From the NCBI GenBank assembly GCA_028829895.1, contig CM054182.1:14714001-14778000 (forward strand): a DNA stretch of 64,000 bases. The letters are read 5' to 3'. The notes under the pieces were generated by a model, which was not told the DNA's origin, made no database searches, and saw nothing but the letters and a program-made list of their open reading frames with translations. Every line of letters starts with the position of its first letter. Position 1 is the first letter of the stretch. Shown here one piece after another: positions 4,101 through 35,600 of this stretch. Both the position numbers and the translations under genes were made by a program. This DNA is from Sinotaia quadrata (taxonomy: Eukaryota > Mollusca > Gastropoda > Architaenioglossa > Viviparidae).

Positions 4101-5457
4101 AGTAGCAGTAAAAATTAAAGTGACTAACAGTACTTTATCAGGACAGCAGCAGTAACAATTAAACAGACCAATAATACTTTGTCAGAACAATAACATTAAC
4201 AATTAAACTGACCAGCAGTATTTATCAGGACAATAACATTAACAATTAAACTGACCATGAGTACTTTATCATGACAGCAGCAGTAACAATTAAAATAACC
4301 AATAGTACTTTATCATGACATCAGCAGTAAAAATTAAACTGACCAATAGTACTTTATAAGGACAGCAGCAGTAACAATTAAAGTGACCAACAGGTCAAAA
4401 TTAAAAATTAAACTGACCAACATTGCTTTATCAGGACAATAACATTAACAATTAAAGAGACCAATAGTACTTTGTGAGGACAATAACATTAACAATTAAA
4501 CTGAGCAACAGTACTTTATATCAGGATAATACTATAGTTGAACTGACTAATACTAATAGTAATATGTAAAATAGCTCGCTATACTGATATGTTTTGCTGT
4601 ATAACACACATATACTGATTCAATTTGATGAGTAATATATACATATAGAGACTCACTCATGCTCTGTGATATGTAACATACATATATAATGATAATAATA
4701 TATACATTGATATAATGACCCAATATGATATATATTGGGTGTCATATTGATTTACTGACCCACATAGACATATCAACTCAATGTGATGTGTAACACAGAT
4801 ATACTCACTCATTGTGATAAATAACAGATATATTGACACATTGTGAATGTACCCAACACAGAAAAATTGATCCACTGAAGTTTGCAACAGATTTATTGAT
4901 TTGCTGAATTTGTAACACAGGCATGCTGACTCATAGAGAGTTTGTAACACACACACACTGATCAAGCAAGGTGTGTGACAGACATATTAATCAATCCAGT
5001 AAGGTAGGGAACGCAGATATATTGATCCAGTGCAGTGTATACCACACACAAATACTGATTCACTGAGTTTGTAACGCAGACACATTGACCTATGGTGCTA
5101 AACAAGTAAAAGCCTGCTTACCTTCGCCATGCCTTTTGTATTATTCTAGCTGCCTCCTGCTTTTTGTAGAAGTCACTCTTTCTTTGCTTCTCATCGTTCT
5201 TGACTTTCTCTTTCTGTCTTTTGCTTTGCAACACTTTCTCTGCATTAGTTATGTCATTATCTTTCTTCCTAAAAATAAAATAAACAATCAAGACACAATT
5301 TTAATGTGCTGCTGAAAAATGTTAAGAATTACATATTAGTAAAGATGTACTTTTAAAGTCAAAGAACAACTTGCAGTGTCTAAGATTATACTCTCAAAAT
5401 AACCGAGCATGTGCACTACCCACTTTTCTGCCTGGCACATTATGTCTGAGAAAGAAA

Positions 5458-5521
<64 letters not shown>

Positions 5522-8500: not shown

Positions 8501-11500
8501 ATTTTTGTGTCGTTTGTTGCGGTTGTCAAACTTGAAATCTACTGACGCCCCCTCCCCCCTTTCTGACAGGAGACTTGTAAGACATTCAGTCAAGGTTGCG
8601 CTCGTGACCCGTTTTAAAGCTTACCGCACACGCGCGGGGGAAAATGCTTGCGACGGTACCTGCACTCAACAATCACACCCAATGCCGGCAATGTTCTGTG
8701 ACCAGGATCTCTTTAAGATATGCTCGTCGTAACTGTATTCTCGTCATGTTGCAACACACAGTGACAATTCCATTAGCGTCCCAAATATAGCGCCTAACTT
8801 ACCACGGACGTGTCATAAAAGTAGTGACACGGCTCTAGTAACGCTATCAAGTCACCAATATAGCGCCTAACTTACCACGGACGTGTCATAATAGTAGTGA
8901 CACGGCTCTAGTAACGCTATCAAGTCACCAATATAGGATTCAAGAGGCTATGGGCGTGTCACAGCGGTAGTGTCAGTTATAATAGCGTCACCAGGTCACA
9001 AAGATAGTACCTAACGTACTACAGAGATGTCACAACAGTAGTGGCAGCTCTATTAAGGTCAAGTCACCAATATTTGGCAATATAGCACCTAACATGCTAT
9101 GGACGGGTCGCGCTTTAGATTAACGTGCTGCAGTCACAAGTGAGAAATTCTGTGACGTGTTGCTTGTGACGTGCTCGTGACAATAATATATCCTGTATGT
9201 TTAGATGTGTTGGTAACGCGAAACCCATCCATGCGTTACTTGTGTGTTGGTAACATGAAGCAATTCGTTGCGTTACTTGTGTGTTGGTAACGTGAAGCTA
9301 CTCCATGCGTTACTTGTGTGTTTGTAACACGAAGCAATTCGTTGCGTTACTTGTGTGTTGGTAACATGAAGCAATTCGTTGCATTACTAGTATGTTTGTA
9401 ACATGAAGCAATTCGTTGCATTACTAGTGTGTTTGTAACATGAAGCAATTCGTTGCGTTACTTGTGTGTTGGTAACGTGAAGCCACTCCATGCGTTACTT
9501 GTGTTTTGGTAACGTGAAGCCACTCCATGCGTTACTTGTGTTTTGGTAACGTGAAGCCACTCCATGCGTTACTTGTGTGTTGGTAACGTGAAGCCACTCC
9601 ATGCGTTACTTGTGTGTTGGTAACGTGAAGCCACTTCATGCGTTACTTGTGTTTTGGTAACGTGAAGCCACTCCATGCGTTACTTGTGTTTTGGTAACGT
9701 GAAGCCACTCCATGCGTTACTTGTGTGTTGGTAACGTGAAGCCACTCCATGCGTTACTTGTGTTTTGTACCCTGGACAACTTCACAGACTTCTGACTGAC
9801 TGACTATTTTAAGGAGGCGTTTCCAGCGATTTTGCGCAGGGAGGATTATGTGGGGAAAGGGAGTGGGACACTATCAACATTACTCTGGCTAATTTCGTTC
9901 CTCTGCTAGCCTTTTCCTCTCAAGACATGTCTGGCTAATTTCGTTCCTCTGCTAGCCTTTTCCTCTCAGAGACATGTCTGGCTAATTTCGTTCCTCTGCT
10001 AGCCTTTTCCTCTCAGAGACATGTCTGGCTAATTTCGCTCCTCTGCTAGCCTTTTCCTCTCAGAGACATGTCTGGCTAATTTCGCTCCTCTGCTAGCCTT
10101 TTCCTCTCAGAGACATGTCTGGCTAATTTCGCTCCCTTGCCTGCCTATTCTCAGTAAAAGACTGACTTAGTAAATACATACAGTGAAAACAGAAAGAACA
10201 CCAACAACAAAAATAGTTAAATAATGTAGTGCAGTCATATATTCTGATTACTGAACTAATGACATTATAAGAAATTTTCTCTAAATTCTTGAACAATGAT
10301 ATAATGGGGTCAATAGCTAATGGAATAATGTTGTTCCCAGTATTTACAGATACTGAACTTATGGGAAAAAAACATTCTCCAATTAGTTTAAAAAGCATTT
10401 TTCTTCGATACATTTCCTAAATTTCTATGAAAGACTGTTTGATGTAATTATTCAAGATTTTATTTTTAAGGGCACTCTAGGATTTATATAATTTTAAAAA
10501 AAATATTTTATTACGAATAAGTTGGGGCTTTTGGTGTAAATTTCCTTCCAACTACATCCTTACTAACCGTACCTTACATTGACTCCGTCTATTCTAGCAA
10601 GTGCAGATTTAGTATCTATTCTAATTTCTAGCAAGTACCATTATCTGAGTGCAGTTTTTGTGGTCTATTCTTGCAATACCATCATTATCTGAGTGCAACA
10701 TTTGTGGTATATTCTAGTAAGTACCAATATCTGAGTGCAGTTTTTGTGGTCTATTCTAGCAATACCATTATCTGAGTGCAGTTTTTGTGGTCTATTCTAG
10801 CAATACTATTATCTGAGTGCAGCTTTTGTGGTCACGGATATGATTGCTGTTATCTGATCAGCAAAGAAACTATAGAAAATCTTTTCAGACTGAAGTACCT
10901 CAGCATGGAATACACTATACAATCTATTCCGACTGAAATACCTCAGCATAGAATACACTATAAAAAATCTATCCGACCTCAGCAAGGAATAATAAAAAGA
11001 AATACCTCAACAAACAAAATCTACTCAGACTAAACCTCCTCAGCATTGAACACATTATACAAAATCTACTCAGACCGAAATACCTCAGCATGGAACACAT
11101 TATACAAAATCTACTCAGACCGAAATACCTCAGCATGGAACACTCCACACGAGCTGCTCCTGCTCTCACTGGCTGACTGGCCGGCCCTCACGGCGTTAGC
11201 ACCCAACCAGTCAGGCCTAAAGCAAGCTTGGAACGTCTCCCTACAACAAGTTTCCTCACACCCAAGCACACCCCCGTTTAACACACACTGCACACACTTT
11301 TACAACACAATGACAGCTGCCTGCCTAACCGAAAAACAGAACGCACTGATATATGACAGAAACAATCACTAACATAATGAACACAGAGCAACACACTGAA
11401 GTATGACATAAACAGGCACAATTAGAATTATTATAGAAGCATACTGATTTCTTTCTTTTAGTCTCTCTTTCAAACACACATACACATACACACACACAGT

Positions 11501-13326
11501 GACATTCAGCTGACTGTCGCAGATATTATTACACAAGCGCATACACGCACAAACACAACAACAATGCGTACACTAACTTATAACTTTTACTCTTGACTTT
11601 TGAGTGATTGCTGACAAAGCGTACCAAGACATTGTAATGTGCATTACATACAAGTAACGAAGGCACACCATGAACATTTCACTACAAGTTAACCATGTCT
11701 ACTCGCGAGTACGCATCGCATTCATGATAACACCGAGAAACACAGTGAATAAATGACTAAAATCGAACTCTGTAGGTTTATTTATAGAACTCTGTAAGTT
11801 TATTTATAGAACTCTGTAAGTTTATTTAACTTTAAGAAGTAACGCATTAATTTACTGCAATAAATAACACATTCATTATATCACGTAATGTCACGCACTC
11901 ATTAGCTGTAACAAGGAACGCATTAACTACCCGCAATAAGTAACGCAGTATTCAGTAACTGTACTAAGTAACGCAATCATTAACTGTACAAAGTAACGTA
12001 TTCAGTAACTGTACTAAGTAACGTATTCATTAACTGTACTAAGTAACGCAATCATTAACTGTACTAAGTAACGCATTCATTAACTGTACTAAGTAACGCA
12101 ATCATTAACTGTACTAAGTAACGCAATCATTAATTGTACTAAGTAACGCAATCATTAACTGTACTAAGTAACGCAATCATTAACTGTACTAAGTAACGCA
12201 ATCATTAATTGTACTAAGTAACGCAATCATTAACTGTACTAAGTAACGCAATCATTAACTGTACTAAGTAACGCAATCATTAATTGTACACTTCGTGCAG
12301 TTATAATGCGCACTTTTAACTTGTCATCTCTCCCCAAATTTTCTGCAAAGCAAACTCTGCCAGCATCGACAAATTAATTTAGTCAGTAAATAATGAACAT
12401 TCACAGCTTCACGTGTTCAACACTGTCATGACAGAAAAAAACAAGTGTAAATATAAATTGTCTTCACGGTATTCAGGACTCTCATGAGTGTAAATACAAA
12501 TTGTCTTCACTCCTTTGCTCGGGATTGTTTGGCCTTGCTCTGAGAGCAAAACTCTTGGAGTTTTGGAATGATATGAAGTGTAACTGAAGAAACGAGAATG
12601 TCTTCATGTGGTTAACGTGTTAATACTCGATCAAACAATCAGGTCCATTCAAACAGAAAGATAAATAACAAGAAGTGAAAGCTTTGCCTCCATTGTTATA
12701 AATCAATGCATATCACACACACACACACACATGGATGCACGCACGCACACACGTTCACAACCACATTTGAAACTCCACGTTACAGGGGTATCGTGTATCT
12801 CTTTGCAGTCGTGCTTTTTAGATTGTATCACTAATCCCATTTAATCCAATACACGACCTCTTGATAATCCAATACACGACCTCTTGACCCTCTGTAGCTG
12901 GTCTTTAGAAATCATTTCTAAAGCCAGACGTTTGCAGTACCATGAAATTGGTAAACTTATATTAGCCCTGTTGGAACTTGCCGCACTACATGTCAATTCG
13001 CAGTGCTGTCAGTTCACTGCATTGCAAAACGAGCACCATGCCACAACGAACAGGATTTCAACCCTGTGACAAGATTACTGCTTATCCATCTGACGTCATC
13101 TCGGGACTAAGATCAAAGTACACAAACAGCAAGTCCAAGTGGTGTGCGTTTACGTTTATTTGTGAGTGTGTTTGTATGTGCATTATTAATGTGTGTCTGT
13201 GTTGTGTTTATTAGTTTTGCTACCTTGTTATATGCGCTCTTAAGTATTTGTGTATCTTTTTTAAATAAGCGTACGTATTTATGCGTGCATTTGTATCTAG
13301 GCACATGCAATCTTTCTGTGTGAGTG

Positions 13327-13366
<40 letters not shown>

Positions 13367-16300
13367 CGTGCGCGCGCGCAATGGGCCGGGCCAAAAGAAA
13401 TAGATTTCGTTTCTAGTAATTTAGAAAATATAATCTTCAGCACAGGTATAGAGCAGAAAACGCAGTCCATATATGAAGTTCTTTGTGCATTTGTTCAATG
13501 TTTGAACTTCTGCTCTCAGACGGCGTCTACTATTTTCGTTACACGTACATAATACACTGTTATCAGTGCAAAACTATCACACACGACTGTCACACATAAC
13601 AGATCAAATGAACGACAGAGCCTCGAAAGAATTACTGCCACTTCAGCTCAACGAACGCCAGATATGGTTTCACCAGGCGATATGTGCATGACCCCTAGAC
13701 ATGCATTGGCTCTAGGGTATGGTGGAATATTTATCTCAAATCTCCAAACACAATCCGTGTATAGTATACACTGTATACATGATGCTAAAGGATTACAAAT
13801 GGCCCTCCCAACAACATAATATGAGATGTGAAGAGAGTTTCCTACAGCTATACCAAGACATGTAACATAATACAGACAAGTGGAGAAAATTTCCTATTAA
13901 TACAGACGAAATGAGTATTTCCTACAGTACTGAGGTGAAGAGAATTTCCTGCAGTAATATAGACAAGTAATACAGATGGGTAACATAATACAGACTCATG
14001 AAGAATGTTTCCTACAGTAATACAAATGTCTAACATAAAACAAACATGCAACATAATACAGATGTGTGAAGAGATTTTCCTACAGTAATACAGATGTGTG
14101 AAGAGAGTTTCCTACAGTAATGTAGATGTGTGAAGAGAGTTTCCTACAGTAATGTAGATGTGTGAAGAGAGTTTCCTACAGTAATACAGATGTCTAACAT
14201 AAAACAAAAATGCAATATAATACAGATGTGTGACGAGTTTCCTACAGTAATACAGATGTGTGAAGAGAGTTTCCTACAGTATGTATCTCTTGCAATGTTG
14301 TGGTGATGATGAATTAGGTCAGTGAAGCATCAGTGGGGTAACAGAAATGTATGTAATATGGAAAGGCAAAGTGCTAAATTACAATCACCACTTATTAGGA
14401 ATAATTAAATTAATGTTAATTAATCAGTAATTACAATCACCACTTATTAGGGATAATTGAATGAATGTTAATTAATCAGTAATTACAAACTCCACTTATA
14501 ATCCTCAACCCAAAGCACAGAAACAGACTCAGAGTTGCTGAGAGAGAGAGAGATGTAGAGTGAGACATTAAGAGTGATAAAAAAAATGTGACATATGACA
14601 AGTGAGATAAATACTAAAACAGCAACATTAAGTGTGAGGTTAACAGTTTCACAAGATATTAATATTAAGATAGACATTGATAACTGAAAAGTGAGATAAA
14701 TACTAAAACAGCAACATTAAGTGTGAGGTTAACAGTTTCACAAGATATTAATATTAAGATAGACAGTGATAACTGAAAAGTGAGATAAATACTAAAACAG
14801 CAACATTAAGTGTGTGGTTAACAGTTTCACAAGATATTAATATTAAGAAAGACAGTGATAACTGAAAAGTAAGATAAATACTAAAACAGGAACATTAAGG
14901 CAGGTTAAAAGTTTCACAAGAATATTAACAGTAAGATAGTGATAAGTGAAAAGATGAAAAGAAAAAATGAAAAGTGAAAAATGAAAAAGAAATACCAAAA
15001 CAGTGTCAATGTCATTAACAGAAGAAATAAAGCAAGACATGATGACATTGAGATACAAGGTGACATAATAACATTAAGTATGAGATGAAAAGTGACATAA
15101 TTAAAAATGATTTAAAGAGTGACAAAGAGATACAATAAAAAAAGAAAAAGGTGGTGGTGGTTATAAATAATGACCAGGAAGACAATAAAAAGATTTAAAG
15201 GGTGACAAAGGGAGATAAAGTGACAACGAGAAAAACTAAGAAATGATACAAAAAATAATTACCTAGGGACATAAATTTCAAGCAAGAGTGACAAAAGAGA
15301 CATAATAGGAAAGTGATAAATAAGAATGACAAAAGTGACAAAATAAAGAAGTAAAGAAGTGATAAAAATAATTAAGGAGGGACTTACATTTCAAGCAAGA
15401 GATAAGAATGACAAAGGGAAATAATGAGTGACAAAGAAGCACAATAAGAAAGCAATAAAAAATACCTAAGGACATACAGTTCATGAAAGATAAAAATGAC
15501 TAGGAAACAGACAATAAAAGAAGTGAAGAGTAGCAAAGGACACAATAAAAATATTGACAAAGCAAAAGGACACAATAGGAAATTGACAAAGATGGATAAA
15601 GATATCAAGAATGAGAAAGGAATATGGAAGAAAGAGATAAACAGGAACCAAGAGTGATAAAAGAGTGACAATGAGAGATTAAGAGTGACAAAAGGATGCA
15701 ATAAAAAAGTCATTAAGAGTGACAAAAGGATGCAATAGGATGCAATAAAAATACAAAAAGATGCAATAAAAATAGTCATTAAGAGTGACAAAAGGATGCA
15801 ATAAAAAAGAGAAGAGTGACAAAAGGATACAATAAAAAAGTCATTAAGAGTGACAAAAGGATGCAATAAAAAAGAGAACAAGAGTGACAAAAGGATGCAA
15901 TTAAAAAAAGACATTAAGAGTGACAAAAGGATGCAATAAAAAAGAGAACATGAGAGACAAAAGAATGCAATAAAAAGTCATTAAGAGTGACAAAAGGATG
16001 CAATAAAAAAGACATTAAGAGTGACAAAAGGATGCAATAAAAAAAGACATTAAGAGTGACAAAAGGATGCAATAAAAAAAAGACATTAAGAGTGACAAAA
16101 GGATGCAATAAAAAAGAGAATAAGAGTGACAAAAGGATGCAATAAAAAAGAGAACAAGAGTGACAAAAGGATGCAATAAAAAAAGACATTAAGAGTGACA
16201 AAGGATGCAATAAAAAGAAGTGTTGAAGTTTTGAACACTTACAATCACCACACTTATGGGGCCTAGATGATGTTAATTCATTCTTGATGCAGATTGAGTA

Positions 16301-19300
16301 GAGGTATGAGGATAGAGTTGAAAAGATCAAGACCTTGATGAAGACGTGACAGAAAAAAGATAAGCAACAGAGGACTGATAAGAAAAGATTAAGAATGCAC
16401 ATGGAATTCTTTAAGAAAGACACTGTGAGTATCACATGAAAGACTGAAAGGGACACAATAAGAAAGAGATAAAGAGTGACAAAGGGCTACAATAATAAAG
16501 AGTGACAAAGGGACACAATAAGAAAGAGATAAAGAGTGACACACAATAATAAAGAGATAAAGAGTGACAAAGGACACAATAACAAGACACCATACAAATG
16601 CACACATCAAATAAATGAACTCACCATGGAAGATTCTGTAATTTCAAGTCAACAGTTTTTCTGTCTTCTGCCTCTTTATGATTTTGAACTTTTCTCATCA
16701 GTTTAGGAGATTGGTGTTCTAACAGGGCAACTGATGGTGGGTGTTCTGACAGGGCAACTGATGGTGGGTGTTCTGACAGGGCAACTGATGGTGGGTGTTC
16801 TAACATGGCAACTGATGGTGGGTGGTCTGACAGGGCAACTGATGATGTGTGCTCCAACAGGGCAACTGATGATGGGCATTCTAAAGGGGCAATTAAAGAT
16901 GGGTGTTCTAACAGGGCAAGTGATGATGAGTTTTTTAACAGGGCAACTGATGATGGGTTTTCTAATAGTGCAACTGATGATGGGTGTTCTAATAGGGCAA
17001 CTGATGTTGGGTGCTCAGGTAATAAATCTGTCACATCTTCAGGATCTCTACGATGGTGCTGATCTTCATATCGTTTTCCCTCACTGGCTCTTTTCCTGCA
17101 GTTTAAGAATAATTAATCAATATATAAGAGCATATAGGAATTTGAGTAATTTTAAACATTATTTCCTATCTCTGAGCTTTTACTGTGTTTTATGTTGTTA
17201 CCCATAGTTCATGCACACAAGCACATGTGCATGCAATCATACATTTACTCAAATGAAAAAAGCAAACTCAAAGAATGTAAAAATATTTTCCTTCATTTAA
17301 TTAAGCAAATTATAACACTTCTCAAAATGCATGCACGCACACACACACCACACACACATATATAGGCCTACACCTCATTTTGATAGTGGAAAAAATAAGA
17401 TAACAATAAAAATTAAACTCTGTACCTAATACTTATTCAAAAAGAAAATGCAGTAAGAAATGCTAAGAGATCTGAGTCTCCACTTGATATTCAAATATCT
17501 ATAAGATCTAAATGGTATAAGTCCCAAATGGCTAAGAAAAGTTCCAGTAATACACTGGCAACTTAAAACTCACTTTAAGATAACAGACTTCTTTTGTGTG
17601 TTCTGTGTAAAAAAAAAAATCAGATCTATGAGTGGAGTTACTGTTCATAGCTCATATTTCACTTTAAATCTTAATGGAAATCTACATGGTCTTAAAAAAT
17701 ATGTTAGCATTAAGTACCTCTATTTATTGACAATACTATATCAAAATTAAATAGTGCTGATTTAAAAAAAGCCTGCCATTCAGTAAGTTTGTACACTGCT
17801 ATGAACAAGATGGCCTAGCACAGAAGCAGCATTTGGAGTGGTAAGAAATCTATCGAGCCGTGGTGTCAATCACTGGTGTGATTCATGCAAATCAAACAAT
17901 GAAGTTATTTTCTATTGTAAATAAAATCTTCTCAATGCAGTGATACAAGTCAAATGCATACATATTAATCTGTATTAATCTGTTAATTCCTGTATTTTAT
18001 TGACTATAATATTAACTAGTCAAGGTCTTAAAAAGTCTTAAGTAGTATGTTAGCTCTACATTAACTAGTCAAGGTGTTGTAAGTAATATCTTAGCTGGTC
18101 AAAATATAAAATAAAATGTGACAATCTGAATAATGAACTGCCCCAATGGACCAGACAGAGGTTGATACTGCACATGCAACTAAATACTACCACATCAGAC
18201 AGGGTTTAATCACATGAACATTAATCAATACAGATCTACTCCTGTCAGGTTTTAGTCACAACAACATTAATCAGTACATAGATCTCTTCAATTATCATGA
18301 GCAGTAAGCAATACATAGATCTAATCCTGTCAGGTTTTAGTCACATGAACATTAAGCAGTACATAGATATCTTCAATTATCACGAGCAGTAAGCAATATA
18401 TATCCTGTCAGGTTTTAGTCACATGAACATTAATCAGTACATAGATCGCTTCAATTACCATGAGCAGTAATCAATACATAGATCTAATCCTGTCAGGATT
18501 TAGTCACCATGAGCATTAATCAATGTAGAGATCTACTCATGTCAGGGATTGATAAGTATTACTGGTTTGCTAGTTATATATTCTCACAATTACAATGACT
18601 AAATGGTTGATAACTGTTGATTTGCTGGTTCTGTATTTTCACAAATCCTTTAAGTTGTAAGATAAAAAGAATGAATGGCAAATATGTGTTTCTAGTTCAT
18701 TGGTTGTATATTCATTGTACAATAAAAAATAATAAATTATGATATGAGTTGTTGGTTCACTAGTTCTATTTTTGTCTTTAACAATAGTAATTAAAGGATC
18801 CTAAAGGTAACACACCAATAACTACTGGCATCAAAATTATCATAACTTTAACTTTTTTTGTTTTTTAACAACTCATTTCCTAAGTGATATTTAGATATGC
18901 AGATGTCAAAGTGAATCCTGCTGTCAAAAGTTATACTAGTTTCTTCAAAATTATGCTATTTGTTGCAGTGATCTTGCTAACTGTCAAGATAATTATAAGA
19001 AAAAATATTAGGTGTCAAGGTAAAACAGATGTCAAGGTGATATTAGTTAGCACTAATAATAAAGAAGCTAATGTAGGAGACACCTTCTTCAGCATCTCTT
19101 GTTGTCAAGGTGATATAGGTAAATATTGATTTAAAAAAAGCCTAACCTGGCAGCTTCCTTCTTTAGCATCTCATGTTTCATAAGCAGTTTCTTCCGCTCT
19201 GTGAATGTTTTCCGTACACGGAAGCCACGAAATGCTGACTGAATAAAAGATGAATTACAACTATTAATAACTACTGTACAGATAACAGTAGCAGCCCAAA

Positions 19301-22300
19301 GAAAGGTGTTAAATATTTTATACAGAAAGAAAAATCTCTAGATTGACAGAAACATTTATTCTAAAGACCTACAAATCGACAGACAGAAACACTTATTCTA
19401 CAAAGAAAAATTGACAGAAAGACATATTTCCTCATGAAAACAAAAACTAGAAGACTGAAAAACATTTCCTCATGAAGACAAAAACTACAAGATTGAAGAA
19501 AAAACACATTTACTCATGGATACAAAAACTAAAAAGACTGACAGAAAGACACATTTACTCTAGACAGTAAAGAGTCAAGATTGACAGATAGACACATTTA
19601 CTCTTGATGACAATTAAAAGATTGGCAGAAAGACACATCTATTTATGAATTTAAACTAAAAGATCGACAGAAGGGAAAATACTAATAAACATCATTAATT
19701 GTTTCACAAGCTAATTCTAACAAGACAAAGTCAGTGTACAGAAATATTACTTACTATGTAAACACCCTTAATTGTTTCAAAAACGATTTCTAACAAGACA
19801 AAGAGAGAACTGGACAAAAAATGATTAAGTATTCCATCAACAGACTTTTTCTAACCAAAGAAAGATGCTTGTAAAAACATGATTAACTGCTATACAAATA
19901 TACAAATTCTGATAAGCCAAAGCACAAAAGCAGAATTTTCCAAAACATTCATTACACACATACTATTTCAGACAAGATCAGGAGAAAATTATATATTAAA
20001 TATTTATACATTAGAACTAGAAATATACAAAAGAACTGCATGTATACATAAAAACTATACACAGTTGCACATTTAAAATAAATTCAAATACCTGAATCTT
20101 AGTGGCTGCAATATCTTGAATGCCAGTGATGGATAATGCCCCTTGTTCAATCATGTATTGTGCTACATCATGGTGCTCTCCCATAAGTGCATAGTCCAGA
20201 GGTGTGTACCTGGAATAGGTATACCCAGAAATATTTTAAGCAAAAGAACAAAAAAAAAAAGTCAAGAAGCATGTACCTATAATTAAGCATGCCATACAAA
20301 TGCTATTAGTTAAAAAAAATACAATTGAGAAGTCAAGTGTGTACCTACAAACAGGCATAGCCCACAAATGCTGAGAGTTAAAAATAAACAAAAGACTTAA
20401 AAATGTCAGAGATATTTATCTATAAACAGACATGGCCCCAAAACACTGTTAGTAGAAAAACAAAGACTTTAGAGAAGTAAAGAGCTGTTTCCTTATGAAA
20501 AGGAATGGCCCACAAACAGTGAAAAACCCAAAGATTTTAGAGAAGTCAAGAGTTGATTGCTAGGTAATATATATATTGTTTATAAAAATCTTTCTAATGA
20601 TGACTGCACAAACACCGATCCTAAACACAATATAGTTTATAAAATTTTTTCTAATGATGACTGCACACATACCTGTCCTAAACACAATATATTGTTTATA
20701 AAAATCTTTCTAATGATGACTGCACATATACCTGTCCTAAACACAATATATTTTTTATAAAAATCTTTCTAATGATGACTGCAAACATACCTGTCCTCAG
20801 TAAACTCCATATGGTTAGGGAAGGCATTGCACTCAATCAGCAGTTTGACAGCATCCAGATGGCCTTGGCTACATGCCCAGTGCAGACACGTCATACCCTT
20901 TAATCAAGCCACAAAATATCACAGACATGTCATACCCTTCAATCAAACCACAAAATATCACAGACAATATTTTAGATTACAGGGTTGATTCTGTGAGCCA
21001 ATCTTGGAACCAGAGTTTTCAAAATGGCTTCTGGTACATGTTTTGATTTCACAGTTTGAAATTTATTCAAGTTTGAAAGTTGGAACTGTGATCCTACTAA
21101 GAAATTTCTTCAAGTCTGAAATTAGAACTGATTCTACTAATATATTACTGAGAAAAATGGTTGACACATTCAAAATGACCAATAGCTAAACAATGTCAAA
21201 ATATACTTTAAGATTCATTTTGTCACATTTATCAACCATAAGTTTGCCTCATAGTCCTGGTTAAAGCATTTTGAGAGCAAAGCCTATCAAGCATACTGTG
21301 AAGTATATTGGCTATTAAAAAAAAATCAAACCTCTTTGTCTTGAGTATTTGGGTTTGCATGATGCTCCATAAGTGCTGACATACAGTTGACAAAGCCACC
21401 ATAGGCCGCACAGTGAAGAGGAGTACGTCTAAACAAAGATAAACCATTACAGTGAAGAGGAGTATGTCTAAACAAAGATAAACCATTACAGTGAAGAGGA
21501 GTACGTCTAAACAAAAATAAACCATTACAGTGAAAAGGAGTACGTCTAAACAAAAATAAACCATTACACTTACAGTGAAGAGGAGTACGTCTAAACAAAA
21601 ATAAACCCTTACAGTGAAGAGGAGTACGTCTAAACAAAAATAAACCATTACAGTGAAGAGGAGTACGTCTAAACAAAGATAAACCATTACAGTGAAGAGG
21701 AGTACGTCTATAACAAAGATAAACCATTACAGTGAAGAGGAGTACGTCTAAACAAAAATAAACCATTACAGTGAAGAGGAGCATGTTTAAATGAAGATAA
21801 ACCATTACAGTGAAGAGGGGTACATCTAAACAAAGATAAACCATTAATTAGAGGGAAAAGATACATCATTCATGGTATAGGGGTATATTTCTAGGACATG
21901 GATAATTCACAGTGGGACAAGGATAGTGTAGTGGAGTAAGTTTGCCTATCCCTATTTCTAAACTTAATAATTATGTATTGCTGCTAATGTTAATACGACC
22001 CAACCTTGGGCACTGCTTATGATGATATTTTTGTAAGTGCCAGAGTTGGAGTAAACAACTCAGGTGGTGAAAATGCTAGAACTTGCTGATGCAATCCAAA
22101 CCAGTTCCAAGTGGATGAGTAGTTTTTCTGACTAATAGCTTCACACTTGTTCATAACAACTTCATCTAATGGGGATGAACCAAAAATTATTTTGTTGAAG
22201 AAAGTTCTATATTCTAATCACTATGATTTTGACATAACTCGAATCTGTTAGCTTATGGTAAGTTAACTGACTGATAAAGAAAGAATTGACTTAGAAATAT

Positions 22301-23560
22301 TTCGTACATGTTTGTTATTGATCTATGACAGGGGTCTCCAAACTACGGCCCATGAGGCCCTCTCATGCAGCCCTTGGAGACAAAAAAGTCTATGGAAAAA
22401 AATTATGGAAATTTACGTGTATCTTGCCAAGATCAGCCACCGCTAATTTTTTCTATCTCTAATCTTTGAGAGTTGAGAGGGAACAAACAACTCTGACCCA
22501 GATTCGGAAAAAAGGAGTGTTATTGATATGGGTCACTGATTGTTATGTAAGTCGGATATATTCTTAGTATCCAGTCCACACAGACTATAGTATATGAGCA
22601 GTCAACCATGACTATTAGACAAAGCCATTGAGTTGCAAGCAAATGACCTCCTTGGGGACAAGTTCAAAGAAGGACTGGTGGGTTTTTACCAGTTTTTGCC
22701 CAGGGAAGACTGTCCTAATGTCAAAACCTTTGCATCAAGGTATCTTCAATCTTTGGAACAACATAACTGTGTGAACAAACATTTGCTATCTATTTTTATC
22801 TACAACTTCATTTAATATTTACAAGTCTTATGTTTAAAAATACATTTTTTAAATCCTGTATATGGAATTTATATGAAACACTATTTCTCAACATTTTCTA
22901 GAATCTGTCCTTGATTGAAAAATAGAATCCAAAAATGACAATTTACAATTTAAAAAGATTTTGACCTTGAATGGTCTCGAATGTTTGGGTCGACACCATA
23001 TTTAACAAGAATTTGGCAAATGTAGGCATGGCCACCAAGCGCTGCCCTGAAACAGAAACAAAATGTAGTAAACAATTAATCAAACTTAAGTGTTATGCGA
23101 TTAGTCAATCAATACTTACCACCTTTGTAAGTACTTATGCAACAAATATTTCCTACAGTGGTAAGCAATAAGTAAACAAATACTTCCTAAAGCAGCTAGG
23201 AGGAGCTAACAAAAAAGAAGTTAAAGTTTTAAACTTAGTGCATATGAGGGAATGAAATTTATGATTTATATTGTACTCTTTCTATTGAAGTGTATGAATG
23301 AAAACTGAGTGTTATTTTTTATAGTTGTATTTTAATGATGATTTTATTTCAGAGATTGGTAAAAAGCATTTAGATAAGTTAGACAAATATTAGAGAGAAA
23401 ACTTAGGGGAAATCCTTGTTAAGATCAAGGTTTCAGTGTTCAGTATTGGAGTTTGTACATCAGGAAACATGTACCACATCAATCAACTTGGCTGGAGTCA
23501 CAAGTTATTCCAATAATCTGTGTTGGGTTAGCCACCAGCTTATATAAGAGAAGGCTAATT

Positions 23561-23604
<44 letters not shown>

Positions 23605-26600
23605 ATATGTGTGTGTCTGTGTGGAACAGAGTTTACAAGCATGAGGCAACATATGTAGTGGTGAATGTGATGAATCATCATGACTAACAGTGGTTTAAGC
23701 TAAGTGAACTGACGAGAGTGAGCTAAGTGAACTGACGAGACTGAGCTAATTAAACTGACACTGGACTGAGCTAAGTGAACTGACACTGGCTTGAACTATG
23801 CGAACTGATATTGAATGAGATAAATGAACTGACACTGGACTGAGCTAAGTGACTTTACAGTGGACTGGTAAATGAACTGACACTGGACTAAGTGAAATGA
23901 GACTGAGCTAAGAGAATTGACATTGGAATGAGATAAGTGAACTGGCACTGGACAGAGATAAGTGAACTTGCACTGGATTGTGCTAAGTGACTTGACAGTG
24001 GACTGAGATAAGTGAACTGGCACTGGATTGTGCCAAAAGAACTGACATTCTAAGAATACTTAAGTGTCTCTGTTCTACCACATCAGTGCACTGAGAACGA
24101 GAGCAACTATGTTTTGGAACATTAAGGATTCAACAGTTAGGTCAAACTGATCTGTGATGAGAAATACTTGGAATCCTTCGGATCTATTTTATTCTTCTTT
24201 TGTATTAAATTTTAATTTTTAATCGTTAAACACTTTTTGCATTATTGTAAATGTTTGTAAACTGTCAATATAGTTTCTGTTTATTGCATTATAAGTGTAT
24301 TGTAAACTGTAAGTATAGAATCTGTTTTTCCATTAGTGATAGAGTAGTAACAGGCAAGGACATGTTTATGGGTTGCAAAACACAAAAGGCACACATTTAA
24401 AGGTGTTTAACATACACAGTACATATTTATGGGTATAATAACCAGCAAGGTCCACATTTAGGGGTGCATCAACAAGTACATACTGATGTGCAGTAACACA
24501 CAAGGCACCCAGGGGTGTATTAACTCAGAAGTACATATCTAGGGGTGTATAAAGTACATATATTAACTCACAAGTACATATCTAGGGATGAATAAAGTAC
24601 ATATATTAACTCACAAGTACATATTTAGGGGTGTATTAATGTACAAAGTACATATTTTGGGATGTATTAGCAAGTGCATATTAAGGATGTAGTAATACTC
24701 AAGGTACATATTTAGGGGTGTAATAACAAATACTTAAGGGTGCATTCACACTCAAGGTACACAATTAAGGGTGTATTACTCAAAAGTTCATATTTAGGGG
24801 TGTAGTAACACACAAAGTATTTATTTATGGGTACTAACATACAAGATACATATTAAGGGGTTGATGAAAAGCTGAGAGCAGAAGGTTAGGTAGTCATTGG
24901 CTAAAGATCTTTTTCATTTTCTGGCATCATCTTGGACTGTCAGGTTTATCACCACAATTCTCCCTGTTTGAGAGCGTCAGGCATACAGCCTTAGTTGTGA
25001 AATGCTTAGAGTTAGTCAGTCCAGAGTTTTATTAAAGGATACTTTTACAGATGTAGCAAAGAACACAGTAGACGAGGATCATACACAAAACAAACAAACA
25101 AGATTATGATAGCAAAGATTGATTTTGATGTCAAAGAAAACAGTTTTGTTTTGTGAGCTTTCTTGAATGATACCATACCAGTGGAGTGGGGACCGGCCAT
25201 CCTGATCCAAGACATCCACACGTGCTCCACTGTCAATCAGTGTTTGAACCACATCTGCGTGCCCCATCTCACATGCACGGAAGAGTGGAGTGAGCTTGGC
25301 CTGGTCTGTGGCATTGATAGCAGCCCCATGCTGCAGTAATAACTGCACACTCTGAGCAAAGCCAGCCAAAGAAGCTGCATGCAGAGCTAGCAGCAGAATG
25401 GAAACAGAAGATTACCCATCATGGCAGCACATTATGAATACAACAGGAGCAGGGTACACACTCAAATTCCTAGGATCAAAAGGGGCTTCACATATACCTT
25501 CGGTAAAGGGGGGGGGGGAGACAAATTGAAAGATTTCATCAAGTTATCACCCCTTATCAGACACTAGTCTCTGCCCATCAATCGTCTCTTTGTTGGGTTT
25601 ATGTTGCTTGCCAGGCCCCTGAAATTTTGTGGTATTTCTAAAGATGTCAGCTTACTTACATGTTGTTTGTGTATTGCCATTGGTTCCATTAATTTCTATC
25701 ATCCTGTCAGTGAGATATGGCAAGATATATTTTTTCCCTTTTAGCCACCTAATGTCCTTGTTGTTATTTCCTTTGTTAATTAACTAGAGTCATGGATTTC
25801 TATCTTGTTATAAATTTGTCCATGTCAATTAAATATCTTGACTCCTACACAACTTGTGTAGCATTTACTGGCTCCAAGTGTGTGTATTGCGTTGTGGTTC
25901 GGTTGCAGTATGTGTTGTGACCATGTTTTCTTGTGAGAGCAGTGAAAAGATGTGTGAGTTTTGACTGTATTTTCTTGTAAAACCTGTTAACAGATGTTTA
26001 GTTGTAAAACTGGTTAACAGTCATGCTTAGCTGTATGCTTCTAGCTGTACTGCATTGTCTGCAAATACTACAGGTTTAAAAGCCATTTGGTGTTGTATTG
26101 CCTCTTTATACACTGTCTGCACATTCCACCTGCTGAATAAAACAAATCTAATTGTTCCATCAGTATTAAAATTCCACATGAGATCTACTAAAAAAGCTAA
26201 ATCTACCTGTTTCACCCATGGTTTGTCCTCTTGCATACCATACCAACTACTGAAAATGCCAAATCTACCTGTTCCACCTGTTTTGTCTTCTTGCTGAACA
26301 TCCACACTGTGTCGCAAAAACACTTTCAGCACATTGTCTGCTCCTTTCCCTGCAGCCCACATGAAAGCTGTGCGACCCTCCAGGTCAGGTTCGTCTGCGT
26401 TTTTCCATGACAGGAAGACGTCAACAGTTTCCTGCCAAAACACAACAAAACAACACATTAAAAAAACTAACTACAGACAAGTGTATTTTCATGTCAGGAA
26501 AACACACTGAAACAACTAACAACAGGCAAGTGTATTGCCATGATAAGAAGACATAAATTATTTCCAGTAGAAACACATCAAAGCGACATAACAACAAACA

Positions 26601-29600
26601 TGGTCCACAAACAGGAAGCAATAAAATAAAATAACTAAAGGTGTCTTTCACTGAAAGGAAAACATTCACTGTTTCTTGTAAAATGTAAAACCAAATAAGA
26701 AATCACTGTGAAAAGCATTTCCAAGCCATTTAGAGGGATCTACAATGGTGGTCACTGAGATGTAAAACAATAAAGGGATCTACAATGGTGGTCACTGAGA
26801 TGTAAAACAATAAAGAATTGTATTGCAGAAGCATAAAACAAAGATGTAAATGAAAAGATAATTTGATATGATACTAACTTTTAGAAAAATAAAAAATAAA
26901 AAATTACTAAGATTTAAAATTTTATATCCAGGCTAACAACATTCAAAAGCTTGAAACCAATCTGAAGAAGATTTCAACCATTTAAATATTGTAACTAATA
27001 ATATAATTGACCGTTTTAGATCATTTACTAAAAAATGAGAGAAATCATAATCAAAATAAATGGTGAAAGTAATATTGCAACCAAATAGTAAAAAATACTC
27101 AAAATAGTATAATTATTTGCATCCAAGAACTACATTGATCTACATCAAATTAGAGATACCAGAATGGACATAACTTTCACATCAAAATGTTGTAACTCTT
27201 AAATTAAAATAATATAACTTGAATATTAAAATTGCACAGCTTCTACATAAAAGTTGAATATTTCAGATCAATGTGGTACAAAATCTACATACAAGTTGTT
27301 TAAATTTTGCATCAAAGGGGGCTAACTCACATCAAAGTTGTTTTGTGCAGCGTAGTGAAGAGGAGTGGCCCCATTAGAATCAGAACTGCTGCTGTCAGCA
27401 TTGTTGCGTAATAAAAGACTCACTATTTTTGAGTGACCTGAAAATGTAAAGAAAATTTTAAAAATCTTTTATACAAACAAATAAATTTAAATAGACAACT
27501 TTTCAATCTTATTGGCAATGTGATTTTAAGTATTTTGTTTGTGTATCAAAATGATGATTGTTTCATGATCCCTTAGGGTTATGTTTCTATTGTTTTAATC
27601 AAGAAGAATCATTTATTGCAAAACTAAAAACAATTAAAAAATTAGTATAGCAAGTGCATTATATAAAGAAGCTAGTAGACTGAAGGACCGAAAGAGAGAG
27701 GCATGTATTACTTTTACAATTTCCAAATAGCATAACTAAGGCTAAAAAATAAAGATTTCACTCAAACTTGACTATGATAAAATAATCCAATTCTGCCAGC
27801 ATTTTATAAATTATTAAATTTTGGGGCTCTGACATCTTAAAAAGAACACACTGCTGAGGCAATAAGTTTTAAATGATAATGTGGCAGAGTAAATTTGCCT
27901 ATCCCTATTTCTAAACTTAATTATTATATAAATTGTTAAATGTCAAAGTGACATGACATTCAGATGCAGACCTTGATGATGTTTTTGTAAGTACCAGAGT
28001 TAAAATAACAACTCAGGTAAAATATATGCTAGAACTTGCTGATGCAATCTAAACCACTTCCAAGCTGATGAGCAGTTTTTCTAAATAATAGTTTCACACT
28101 TGTTCATAACAACTTCATCCAATGGGGTTAGTCTGAAACTTACCTGTTCAAGAAAGTTCTATATTCTAATCACTTTTATTTTGATGTAATTCAAGTCTAG
28201 TCATAAAGGCAATCATTAGCTTATGGTAAGTTAACTGACTGATAAAGAAATAGACTTAGAAATATCTTGTATGTTTGCTATTGATGTATAATTTGAAATG
28301 GAGAATGCTTTATGTAACTGAACCATTACTTCTATGTTCACTAATTTGATTACATTATACATGTACATTATACTTGTGAATTTTGATCAATGCTATATTT
28401 CTTATGCTGCTTGTGCATGGGGCTAATGAATATTGTTGCAGGATTGAGAATGTGTGTAAGAGAGACAGGAGTTTAGAGATGAAATATGCTTGAAACTTAG
28501 CACTGCTCCTTAATTTGATTGTGCGTAAAGGAGCATACCTTTATTCTTTTGATGTTTTTATGCTTTCGAAGTTTTGTAAGCTTGTATCAGCTCCAGACTA
28601 CAGTGACTTCTGTACTTTACTGGATCACTTTGGTGTGTATCCAGCAGTGTCGTCAAAACTTATCAGTAAATGTGTTGCTGTAAGTTGATTCTTGTGAATT
28701 CTGTTTGAGAGCCAATATGATGGAAATTGAGGCTTGAGTTTGGTCTTGAGAATTCATGAAGTTTCCTGAACATTCCTCATGGTGCTTGAGTATCACACAT
28801 GAAGATTCAGGAACATTGCTCGTGGTGTGCTGATATCACATACAAAGTTCTCGACTATTCTCTACGTGTGCTTGAGAGTGCACACAAGATTCTGGAACCG
28901 TTTGTGTAATGTTGGGGCATGTTGGACCCATTATCCAACAAGGTAGAAAACGATTCTGTGACACTGTTGCAAAACTGCATGGTTGTGACAGCTGACCTCA
29001 TAAAAAGGTCCTGTACACTAACTATTACTTCTCTATAAACTCCACTCTTATTTCTGTGATGGAATTAGACCCATGATTTAGGTTATTTATTTATCTGACT
29101 GCTGATGTGTATGTTAGGATAAAGACTGAATAAGTAATGACTGAAGTTTATCTGAACATTGTTTTGAAGAAATGCAAATGTCAACATTCTTTCAATTGTA
29201 TTCATATATATATATATATATTTGATTGTTGAATTAATAAATTTATTGTTAAACTTATTAACCTTCTTGCACATATTATTAAACTATATGTTGGAGTGAC
29301 AGTTGGTCGTTGGGGCTCATTAAATATAATTAAAGATGGATTAGTTACTCCTTTAGTAAGAAGTTTCCACTGTGAAAATACTGCGTGACAGTAAAACATC
29401 TGTCTTATTGTTGTGGAAGAGAGAAGACTTTACTAAACCCTTACAATCTGACAACTGAGAGTCGAGTGGTGTCTCCTGGCAGAAATATTAATAAACAAAT
29501 TAAGATTTCTCCAACACTTGTAATTAGTATGGATTATTATTATTATTAATAATAATAATAACCAGTAACAAAGGGATGCATGTCACAATATCCTTTAGCT

Positions 29601-32600
29601 ATGAAAATGAAAGCATAACATTGTTGTGCAATAATACCTTACCTAAGACAGCAAGAGCTATGACATTAAAGCACTATCTAGTGTGTGAGAATACCTTACC
29701 TAAGACAGCAAGAGCTATGACATTAAAGCACTATCTAGTGTGTGAAAATATCTTACCTAAGACAGCAGCCCAGTGCAAGGGAGTCCGAAACATGTTGTCC
29801 AGTGCAGAGACTGTACACTTTTCCATCGATGTCTAATGGACAACATGATATTAAGTAGTTAATATCAATGCAGATGTCTAATCAGCAATGCAATATTAAG
29901 CAGTCAATATCAACATAGATGTCTAATGGACAACACAATATTAAGTAGTCAACATCAATACAGATGTCTATTGGACAACAAGATATTAAGCAGTCAATAT
30001 CAACATAGATGTCTAATGGAAAACATGATATTAAGCAGTCAATATATAAAGGCAGTTAATTTTATTGGAATAAACTGATATATATTACAAAAAAATTAAA
30101 ATAAAAAGTGTTGAAGCATAAAGAAATCATTTCCAGACATAAATGAAGGTTTATGTAGTTAATTTCACAAGAATTAAATTACAAAAAAATTAAAATAAAA
30201 AGTGTTAAAGCACTTATCAAAAACATTTCTAAACATAAATGAAAGTGCATATAGTTAATTTCACGTGGAATTATTTGAAATGAAAATATAGGACAAAGTA
30301 AATGTAGATAATACTAGAGAAATAAAAGGTAATAAATGAAGTACATTGTGTATTAAGAATAGATAATTTAAAAAGAAAGAAAAGTAGCCATGATATTCAA
30401 TCCTACTATATACAATGCAAGACCTCTGGCTGGCTGGGTCGAAAGCTGAATGTGCAGACATTGTTCATACGGGTTTACCCCATTTCTTAATTGTAACTCA
30501 AGGGGTATCATTGCTTAACCAGGTATATTCATTTCTAATGGAGACACTGACTGCATCACACATTTTTCTGTCAGTTTGACATTTCCAAATAAAATGTTTA
30601 GTGTATAGTTTGCACAATAATGTAATGGATGGTTACTAATATTTTAGTAACAGGATGTACATTCTCATAGAATGTTCTGTAAAAGAAAACTAAGTCTGGA
30701 GGAGCAAACAGTTCATGAAGCCATGGTTAAGAAATGGCATTCTGAGCAACAGCAATTGCATAGGACAAGTATCACTGAACAATAAAAGTCCTTAAACAAG
30801 AACAAGATATTCAGTATAAGATGACTAATATTGTTAATATAATAAAGATGAACAACAACAATAGAAGGAGCTAAAAGCTCAAAATGAAAGAAATCACATA
30901 AAAAATATGAATGACAAGAGTCCAGGGAAAGAACAGTCATGAAAAATGAGGTTTACAAAGAAATATTTTCCATGTATGTGAGACAGCTAATATAACTGGG
31001 TTTAATTAAATGCAACAAATCAAAAATTAAAATGAAATCACAGGAGACAATTGATCCCACTGAATGATGGGCTTTTTCCTACTGTTATATAATGCAATGA
31101 CCCGATCAAGCGCAGCATAGGTGGAAAACTAATTTGAGATAATACTATCATCTAAATTAAATTTTAATTTGTTGGAATGATCTAAGTTAATTTATGTTGC
31201 TATTTCTCAAAATCCTTTAGCAGAAAGACATATTTCCTGTTATCACACTACTCAGAGCACAGAAAAAGCCATACATTTAAAAAATTTCTGTTATCATACT
31301 ACTCACTAGTACAGAAAAAGCAATACATTTAAAAAAATTCTGTTATCATACTACTCACTAGTACAGAAAAAGCAATACATTTTAAAAACTTTCTGTTATC
31401 ACACTACTCACTAGTACAGAGAAAGCAATACATTTTAAAAACTTTCTGTTATCATACTACTCCCTAGTATAGTAAAAGCCATACATTTTTAAAAATTTCT
31501 GTTGCACTTTGAATACTAGCACAGAAAAGGCATTCATGTTCTAAATTTCGAATACTAGTACCAAAAAAAATATGCATTTTCTAAACTTGTGTTGCACAGA
31601 GAAATTCTAGCACACACAAAAAAACATCTTCTAAACTTGTATTACATACAGAAATTCTAGCACACACAAAAAATAAACATCTTCTAAACTTCATGTCTCA
31701 CACCACTCACTAGCAGATTCACAATGCTTTGATTGCCATCAGCAACAGCCAAGTGGAGAGCTGTACGGCCCTCATAATCCTGCCAATTTAAAACACTAGG
31801 TGTGGTTTCCTGTCAACAAAAAACATAACAGGTGTCAGTGAAAATATCATATTCACAGATAAGAGAACATGTTAGTTAAAGTGATATTAAGTTCCAAGAC
31901 AAAGGACATGTAGGTGAAAGTGATATAAAGTTCATAAAAATACAGAACATATTAGTTAAATTGATATCAAGTTCACAACAATAGAGCACATATTTGTGAA
32001 AGTGAAAGCCATTTATACACTTCTCTTGTGTATACTAGGGAGATCATAAGTGTATTAAACTGTGGCCTGGGGGTGGTGGTAAGAAAATATGTTAGAAAAA
32101 ACTTAATCACATCTAAACCCCAACATGGCCAACCAAACATCCATCCACACTTCTGAAATGTCAGATGTTACAAAAGTATTTGAAGATCAATGGTATTATA
32201 AATAATAATTATAAAAAAAGGCTACGACCCCCCCCAATCTCAACCTGACATAAAGGTGATGACAACAGCTAAAAGGAAAATGCAAGCACTCATAAACTTA
32301 GGGATACATGAACATTTTATAAGAAATGAAGTAATGGTGGCAGAAAAATTGTTACAAAATCAAAATAATGTGAGCACATTCTGTCAGTTCAATCACTGCA
32401 TAGTATCCACTGCATTAGACAGAGTAAAATTCTCAGATAAATTTTTAGGAAAAAAATATAAATTCTCTGAATAGATCAATTGTTGTCATGCTGATGATTG
32501 TAACAAATCTGCCGTCCATTTAGAAATGGAAAGAAATGTTGGAGCAGCATATGGTAACAACTTAAATATTTTACACACAGAAGTGAATTTACCAAAATAA

Positions 32601-35600
32601 GATATTAGTTACATAAATATGATAAAACAGAAATGAATTTACCAAAATAAGTTTGACGCATTGAACAGCTTCTGGGTCACGACTACTTGCTGCCCAGTGC
32701 AGTGGTGTCTTTCCTTCCACATCTGGGATACCAATGTTTGAATCCTGAAAATACATTTAAATACAATAACTCAAACATGGAAAAATACACTCTTTAGCAC
32801 CTCTCTGGGTATCATTCACTCATTATGATCATTATTTATTAATTAACAACACACAACTAATTACAAGTTATCAGAATCTTAATTTATAGTTATTAATAAT
32901 TCTCCCACAAAACCAACATGTCTTTCACTTGGTGGATTATAAAGGTGTCGTAAAATTCTACTCTTTACACAATAATAAGATATGTTTTACTCCTTCATAA
33001 TGTTCTGCAGATGGAAAACATCTTACCAAAGGAGAAGATAAATCCATCTTTTAATCTATATTTAGCGAGGCCCCATCCACCCACTACCTCTCTGATAATC
33101 CAACTTATAGAACACATAAACAAACCAAGTCAAACATGGCACCAACACTCACAACCCACACTTAATCCAACTTATACAATACTACATCACAAGTCAAACT
33201 GACATGTACCAGTTATAGCTTACCTGAATGATATGCAATTTGACATAAAAATTTCTAATTTCTAAGTTCTAATTCTAGCTTACCGGACTGATAAGCAATA
33301 TGATGTAATAGTTTTAGCTTATCTGATTGATAAGCATCTTGGCATCTACAACACCATACTAATTATTTTAATATGCAGTTTAACATCTAAATAGCACTTA
33401 ACTGTTTGATAAATATACTGACATCTACAATAGCATGCTTACCTGTTTGATAAGCATCTTGACATGCTCCAGATTACCATATGATGCCGCCCAGTGAAGA
33501 GCTGTTCTCTGTTGATAAATTTTCAGTCAATAATTGACCTTGCAAATTGCTTCATTTCTACATTTATAGACAAGAACTAATTATTTAAGTTACTGTACCA
33601 CATATCTAGACAAGAACTAATTATTTAAGTTCATTTCACCTACATCTCTACAATTAATTAAGTTCATTTCACCACACATTTAGTAAAATATTAAGTGATT
33701 TCATACATATTCCTAGCATATTTTTGTACAAACTATTTAATTATTGAAATTTATTTACAGCATGTACCCTCAACATTAAATTAATTAATATGGATAATTT
33801 TACAATCACATAGTCAGCCATTATATATTTATATAAGTTAATTTTATCAGTGTTAAAAAAAATAAATTTAGGACATTTAATTTCTTAATTGATTCATTCC
33901 TAAAGATATAATGTCATTTATTTGTTCTTTCCTTAAATACAATTTAAAACAATGTATTGCCAATTCTTCCCTTCCCAAATGATAAGATGGAACCCCAACT
34001 CCCCTTTGTTTTTTTAACGTTCAGAACTAAACTCTGCACACATTCAACAAGCAATTGACCTTTAGTACATTATTTTATTCATAAGGCAAATAAATAGATA
34101 AATCGATAGATTGATAGAAAAAGAGGCAAACTGACAGAAAGACAGACAGACAGATTTATATATATATAAACACACACACACACACATCATGTTTTGTGGT
34201 AATTAATGTTTATTATTCCTACTTAGTGGCTTATAAAATGGGTGCCTTTAAAGTTTTGCAAGCCAAAAAATGCCTTTAAATGGGAACATCTGTTCACCCA
34301 ACAAATTAAGTTCTCTAAAATAAACCTATTGCTTCTCAATTAAACCTATTTACCTTCAGAGGAACTTTAAAATTAATATATGTTTATTGACAGCATATAT
34401 ACACAGATGTACAGACTCTCAATGGGGGGTGGGGAGGTTTCCTAGATAACTGGAATTCCATTTATTATGTGTACAAACATTATCTACAAAGTACTGTGCT
34501 TTTGAGAAAAAAAATGCATATATGAATTTAAACATATTAATTCATTTGCAATAAGAAAGAAAACATCTAGGTTTTTCTGTTTAGCCTCATCAACCAACCT
34601 AAAGATGATTTAATCACCTCCTCCCTATTTATTTTCAATTTATCATAAAGTATTTAACTTTTACTGGTCAAATGGCATCTACAACTAGGATTAACTTAGC
34701 TCTTTGCTAGATGACCCAAAACCATGGTTGTACATAAAGGTTTCAATTTTTTCCCATTACTTACAGGAATTATATCATTTTATTTTTTTTTTATAACAGC
34801 ATACACATTTTGGTAACTGAAAGCAGGTTCATCAGTGAATTGATGAATTTTGTAATTATTGCTTTGTTCTCTAGAAATAATGATCCTTTTGAATATGAGT
34901 GTGAATGAGTTTTATCAAACTTTCAAATTATTTGTATGCAAAAAAAATAAAACAAAGATGTCTACATTATACATATCCCAAGCAAACTCAAGTCTTTGTT
35001 ACACCGTGGCAAGGAGAAGAATGCAAAAAAAAATAAAACAAAGATGTCTACATTATACATATCCCAAGCAAACTCAAGTCTTTGTTACACCCTAGCAAGC
35101 AGAAGAATGCAAAAAGAGTGCTGGATCTAAGATAGAACCTGGCAACTGATCAATAAACATAAGACTGAAATGCCAGAAATTAGCCCTCAATGAACATAAG
35201 ACTGTGAAGTGCCAGAAAGATCTGGTGAAGTCAATGTCAAGTAAAGAAAAACTGCTGAACTGATAGAAAGAATGGTCAGAGTGCAAGGGGAGGTAGGGCA
35301 CAGGAAGCAGTGGACAGAAATGATATCAAGATCCTGTATTGCTTTGTCCGACAGCTGACAGTAGCTCATGGTATAGTCTCTATTAAAGACAAAAATGGCA
35401 AGATCTTAGTCAGCAATATGCAGTGGGTTGAATACTTCAAAGAAATGCTAAATCAGCGGCGCCTAGCTGCAATCTGATTTAAGCGCTAGTCAGCCTACCC
35501 CATTGTACACTCTTTGATGAGATAGATGTAAAGCTGGACATGATCAAAACAGAATAAGCTTATAATACGATCAAAGAACTAAAGAACAACAGATCACAGC

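Follow-up and report, generated by a model that had tools for sequence, protein, structure and literature searches.

Tandem duplications across an exon-intron boundary have been named mirage minisatellites in amphioxus, where passages of PMC3087553 describe them in Adh3 and in the globin genes BflGb6 and BflGb9, and report that the globin and Adh mirages do not disturb regular splicing. A section of a further paper adds PGBD5 to this list, and mentions troponin C as a gene with similar repeats (PMC3902484). In human IFI6 (6-16, G1P3), according to the passage on this gene in PMC4526556 (citing Turri 1995), a minisatellite supplies splice donors, and its downstream units are said to be used in the mRNA. 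Here we describe an array of eleven units at the acceptor of exon L of the inversin (INVS) gene of the snail Sinotaia quadrata. By its structure the array is a mirage minisatellite, known here from genomic sequence alone. As in amphioxus, the unit spans the boundary (each of the 11 units combines the last 20 nt of the intron with the first 19 nt of the exon), many units keep their splice signals (AG in 10 of 11), and several genes are involved at donors as well as acceptors, namely five donors and three acceptors in snail INVS, together with a myosin donor and a myosin acceptor. The host differs, being a cephalochordate there and a gastropod snail here, and the passages on amphioxus give unit lengths of 150-160 bp for BflGb6 and of 10-72 bp for Adh3, compared to 39 bp for the exon L array of the snail. 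The IFI6 minisatellite shares with the snail array the layout of repeated splice sites at an exon edge, whereas its sites are donors, with downstream units used in the mRNA according to that passage, and those of the snail are acceptors read from the genome. In NAGNAG tandem acceptors, alternative AGs lie 3 nt apart and no exon sequence is duplicated. With these and other tandem acceptors the array has in common that one exon has several candidate acceptors and length steps that stay in frame; unlike the NAGNAG type, its units are at least 39 nt long and carry copied exon codons, and its junction AGs do not lie 3 nt apart. In the open-licence literature, including gastropod and snail queries, we found no report of mirages in molluscs, and the passages on minisatellite and splice site in a conotoxin-gene paper (PMC3862624) do not describe them.

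The window, by which we mean the whole 64,000-nt stretch of DNA analysed (C6:14714001-14778000, within a 98.9-Mb contig), carries INVS on its minus strand, with 18 exons placed, A to R (Table 1). Joined together, exons B to O give a 550-residue frame without a stop, and the introns are of the GT-AG type. For comparison the best 120 of 7835 homologue matches were used; among those listed, the nearest named protein is the inversin of Batillaria attramentaria (91% identical), followed by those of Pomacea canaliculata (87%) and Branchiostoma lanceolatum (70%). The protein thus points to a caenogastropod-like snail, and amphioxus was rejected as the host. The intron between exons K and L is in phase 2, exon K ending in AG and exon L starting with A, which results in a joint AGA codon (22966-22967 + 21428). 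This codon specifies Arg, and all 14 homologues displayed at this position have Gly.

Table 1. Placed exons of inversin in the window, and the repeats found at their splice junctions (positions are those of the window).
Feature	Position	Strand	Basis
Exons A-R of inversin, 18 placed	2742..39041	-	span covers placed exons
Exon L of inversin (A-CGT-ACT... = RTPLHCAAYGGFVNCMSALMEHHANPNTQDKE), 97 nt	21332..21428	-	authentic acceptor adjoins upstream
Acceptor mirage of exon L, array of 11 units	21410..21846	-	unit alignment, TRF
Donor mirage of exon M, 59 bp x 3.9 (GGACAG/GTATGT repeated)	20571..20797	-	TRF, junction test
Exon M, mirages on both sides	20791..20897	-	junction test
Acceptor mirage of exon M, 39 bp x 2.2; upstream of acceptor, 2 open codons and then an in-frame TGA	20883..20966	-	TRF, junction test
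Single decoy copy of exon I donor; its GT 62 nt into intron; approximate limits	26187..26227	-	junction test
Donor mirage of exon G, 57 bp x 2.4 (GTCTTAG/GTAAG repeated)	29633..29767	-	TRF, junction test
Exon G, mirages on both sides	29757..29832	-	junction test
Acceptor mirage of exon G, 45 bp x 4.8; TAG of acceptor is a stop in exon frame	29828..30045	-	TRF, junction test
TRF array reaching exon F donor, 50 bp x 3.2; weak junction score 27, outside the eight junctions with copies	31551..31715	-	TRF, junction test
Single decoy copy of exon E donor; its GT 50 nt into intron; approximate limits	32577..32602	-	junction test
Donor mirage of exon D, 41 bp x 3.7	33317..33465	-	TRF, junction test

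The unit of the exon L array reads AATGGTTTATCTTTGTTTAG/ACGTACTCCTCTTCACTGT, the slash marking the junction. An earlier note on this DNA had described eleven tandem units of an acceptor plus codons, and both our unit alignment and TRF (period 39, 11.0 copies, 91% matches, score 706) confirm that number. Unit 11 is the authentic junction at the start of this inversin ankyrin exon; its AG at 21430-21429 precedes the first exon base at 21428, so that the acceptor had been placed correctly at 21429. The unit length of 39 bp given there holds for most of them, the exceptions being unit 4 (40 bp, with one extra base just before its AG) and unit 8 (45 bp, six extra). Similarly, the acceptor motif followed by RTPLHC had been ascribed to each unit, whereas TTTGTTTAG is exact in 9 of the 11, unit 4 having TTTGTTATAG, and the RTPLHC codons are exact in 7 of the 11, with deviations in units 1, 2, 8 and 10. 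Unit 2 has lost its AG and reads TTCATTTAA, which leaves nine intact acceptors upstream of the real one. Chance falls far short of explaining the array itself, but suffices for its position over a splice site.

How do these upstream acceptors compare to the real one? On a crude acceptor score, built leave-one-out from the INVS gene's own acceptors, the nine intact copies reach 3.9-6.5 and the real exon L acceptor 4.8, and two additional AGs inside the array units score 7.9 and 5.3. However, array-free INVS exons also have up to eight upstream AGs that come within 1.5 of the real site or better (six for exon N, seven for P and eight for R), and near-equal scores therefore tell us little of real competition. 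The junction AGs of neighbouring units are spaced 39, 40 or 45 nt, or 78 nt across unit 2, and for seven of them, in units 10 to 4, the distance to the real acceptor is divisible by three. Their use would add blocks of 13 residues in frame, as had been proposed, except that the 45-bp unit would give 15 residues. At the acceptors of units 3 and 1, which are 319 and 397 nt from the real one, splicing would cause a frameshift. The frame had further been said to stay open through seven units to the 40-bp unit. It does, and in the exon L frame RTPLHC stays in register over units 11 to 5 and the exon-like part of unit 4; the openness extends further, however, as the frame upstream of unit 4 is out of register yet stop-free, for a total of 140 codons up to a TAA at 21850. 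The open frame carries little weight, because 13 codons without a stop are found in 44% of random 39-bp stretches of the INVS gene region, and because one open unit makes its copies open as well; we rejected it as a mark of coding use.

In the ten intronic units, 6 of 190 sites of the exon-derived part differ from unit 11, as do 9 of 180 sites of the intron-derived part (unit 4, with its extra base, excluded from the latter count), five of the nine being one shared C/T difference. The two parts thus diverge at similar rates. Five of the changes in the exon-like parts are nonsynonymous and one is synonymous; the synonymous share expected is 26% for random changes and 33% for transitions. Selection at the protein level has left no visible trace in the exon-like codons of the intronic units, with six changes being too few to exclude weak constraint. 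An insertion at the array position was looked for by motif count in 107 of the 120 listed homologues, which are mostly vertebrates, and none was found; the other 13 did not match the motif and were hence unscored.

Copies of junction sequence are not confined to exon L. The finding in the earlier note is silent on the other INVS junctions, and further genes lay beyond its window. Comparing 40 nt around each junction of exons A to R with 400 nt of the neighbouring intron, and counting copies at a score of at least 40, we found that 8 of the 36 INVS junctions bear copies, namely the donors of D, E, G, I and M, and the acceptors of G, L and M, such that exons G and M carry mirages on both flanks. 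The donor units of M and D (59 and 41 bp) are not multiples of three, and that of G (57 bp) contains a TAG in the exon frame. At the acceptor mirages of exons G and M, an in-frame stop is met after 0 and 2 codons upstream, respectively, so that the upstream acceptor copies of these exons could not be used harmlessly. A rule by which acceptor mirage units would be divisible by three (39, 39 and 45 bp in INVS) was dropped, because the myosin acceptor array described below has 35-bp units. A duplication at the exon O donor, apparent by eye, failed the junction test (score 15); what the intron does contain, ~45 nt from its start (~19080-19102, minus strand), is an incomplete copy of the end of exon O that lacks the donor. 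The donor mirage units at 20571-20797 and 29633-29767 have a T-rich stretch and an AG right before the GT, e.g. CTTGCTGTCTTAG/GTAAGG. This layout of the M and G donor units resembles that of recursive-splicing (zero-length exon) sites, a resemblance only.

Elsewhere in the genome, 80 myosin-head matches and 100 dynein AAA_6 matches served as exon markers, of which 33 and 14 were examined; the junctions of these genes were placed by a score derived from 18 INVS sites, and some may be misplaced. Two of 66 myosin junctions score at least 36, compared to 7.6% of 3000 random positions near myosin exons. In dynein, 1 of 28 junctions reaches this score, a weak case, and when read directly the dynein copies have lost the GT. 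Both myosin cases are clear-cut. One gene (L032) has a 27-bp unit in 12.9 copies over a donor; ...TTCAAGCAGAG/GTATGT... recurs from the end of the exon onward into the intron, and ten copies, among them the real donor, are exact over GCAGAGGTATGT. The other (L025) has a 35-bp unit in 6 copies over an acceptor, ...TATTTTCAG/CATTTG..., up to the real acceptor.

Could splice junctions then be preferred birth sites of minisatellites, e.g. through transcription- or R-loop-linked duplication? The higher share of junctions with copies in INVS (8/36) than in myosin and dynein together (3/94; Fisher P 0.0015) would speak for this, yet we consider it quite improbable. Enrichment of tandem duplications at splice junctions was tested in INVS, myosin and dynein, and was not found: random intron positions of INVS reach junction-test scores of at least 40 in about 16-18% of draws, nearly as often as the 22% of junctions, without an excess for acceptors (Mann-Whitney P 0.75) or donors (P 0.61), and the 3 of 94 myosin and dynein junctions show no excess over the 7.6% of random positions near myosin exons. 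Moreover, the window is dense in repeats, as tandem repeats with a period of at least 10 bp cover 29.5% of it, whereas 16 arbitrary 10-kb stretches from this genome average 16.0% (median 12.6%, range 0.5-43%), and it may be this repeat density that accounts for the excess of INVS over myosin and dynein. Because junctions are no commoner targets than random intron positions, it looks as if active tandem duplication had merely happened to overlap a junction where the arrays lie. We find it hardly credible that the exon L array is an artefact of the assembly, or that its repeat was collapsed or expanded there. Tandem arrays are prone to sizing errors and this one is known from one assembly, but its units are distinguished by diagnostic changes, the window lies inside a large contig, and the array query has a single match, at 100%, in the 984,265,383 bases (26 contigs) of that assembly.

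The earlier note had left two readings of the exon L array, acceptor wobble or an array of decoys, and it is the latter that fits better, given the lack of visible codon constraint, the lack of an insertion in the scored homologues, and the stops encountered by the sister acceptor arrays of exons G and M. Under wobble, several units would be used, producing inversin isoforms with 13-residue blocks (RTPLHCNGLSLFR-like) in the loop preceding an ankyrin repeat, in a number varying by allele. Nine intact upstream acceptors of similar score, seven of them in frame, and an exon L frame that is open throughout the array are what such use would need, and the passage on IFI6 in PMC4526556 says that minisatellite donors are used there. 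Against it stand the same three observations on codons, homologues and sister arrays, and we regard wobble as unlikely. That the array consists of mostly ignored decoys, with the exon-proximal copy being used, is in our judgement probable. We infer both the actual splice choice at exon L and its cause. On this reading, a segment comprising the 3' end of the intron and the first 19 nt of exon L would have been tandemly duplicated toward the intron side, in a minisatellite-rich genome, and then expanded. The unit adjoining the exon body would serve as the working splice site and the other ten units would be intron, nine of which, with an AG of similar local score, would act as decoys that the spliceosome mostly bypasses. 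Such a boundary duplication would be tolerated because one intact junction always stays beside the exon. Exon definition, together with enhancers in the exon body, is the mechanism we prefer for favouring the exon-proximal copy. It should be noted, however, that the similar site scores give that copy no local advantage, and that in classical competition tests the acceptor closer to the donor can be preferred, which counts against an exon-proximal choice. With seven upstream acceptors in frame, low-level longer inversin products are possible. A full ladder of inversin isoforms, rising in 13-residue steps in the ankyrin loop up to a limit set by a copy-number-variable array of equal acceptors, is a prospect we hold to be doubtful; if it were true, a minisatellite allele would alter a cilium protein through splice choice alone.

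These observations extend the mirage phenomenon, known from amphioxus, to the inversin and myosin genes of a snail genome. Snail mirages present near-identical splice sites that differ mainly in position, and as such provide a natural setting in which to test which of several equal sites the spliceosome takes; rows of as many as ten near-identical acceptors before one exon amount to natural experiments on position-dependent splice-site choice. Furthermore, mirage arrays are raw material for the proposed gain of introns via duplicated splice signals, and the resemblance of the sampled arrays to an unselected overlap of tandem duplication with junctions makes for a useful null model.

Two further observations concern the inversin gene and its surroundings. 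Within the coding sequence of exon P (16625-17095), in the C-terminal region of inversin, lies a 27-bp, 11-copy repeat (16709-17013), which encodes 9-residue LLEHPSSVA-like units; no such repeat is present in one homologue compared (P0001). Upstream of exon A, at ~39600-40600 on the minus strand, open frames resemble, by eye, a putative retroelement reverse transcriptase.
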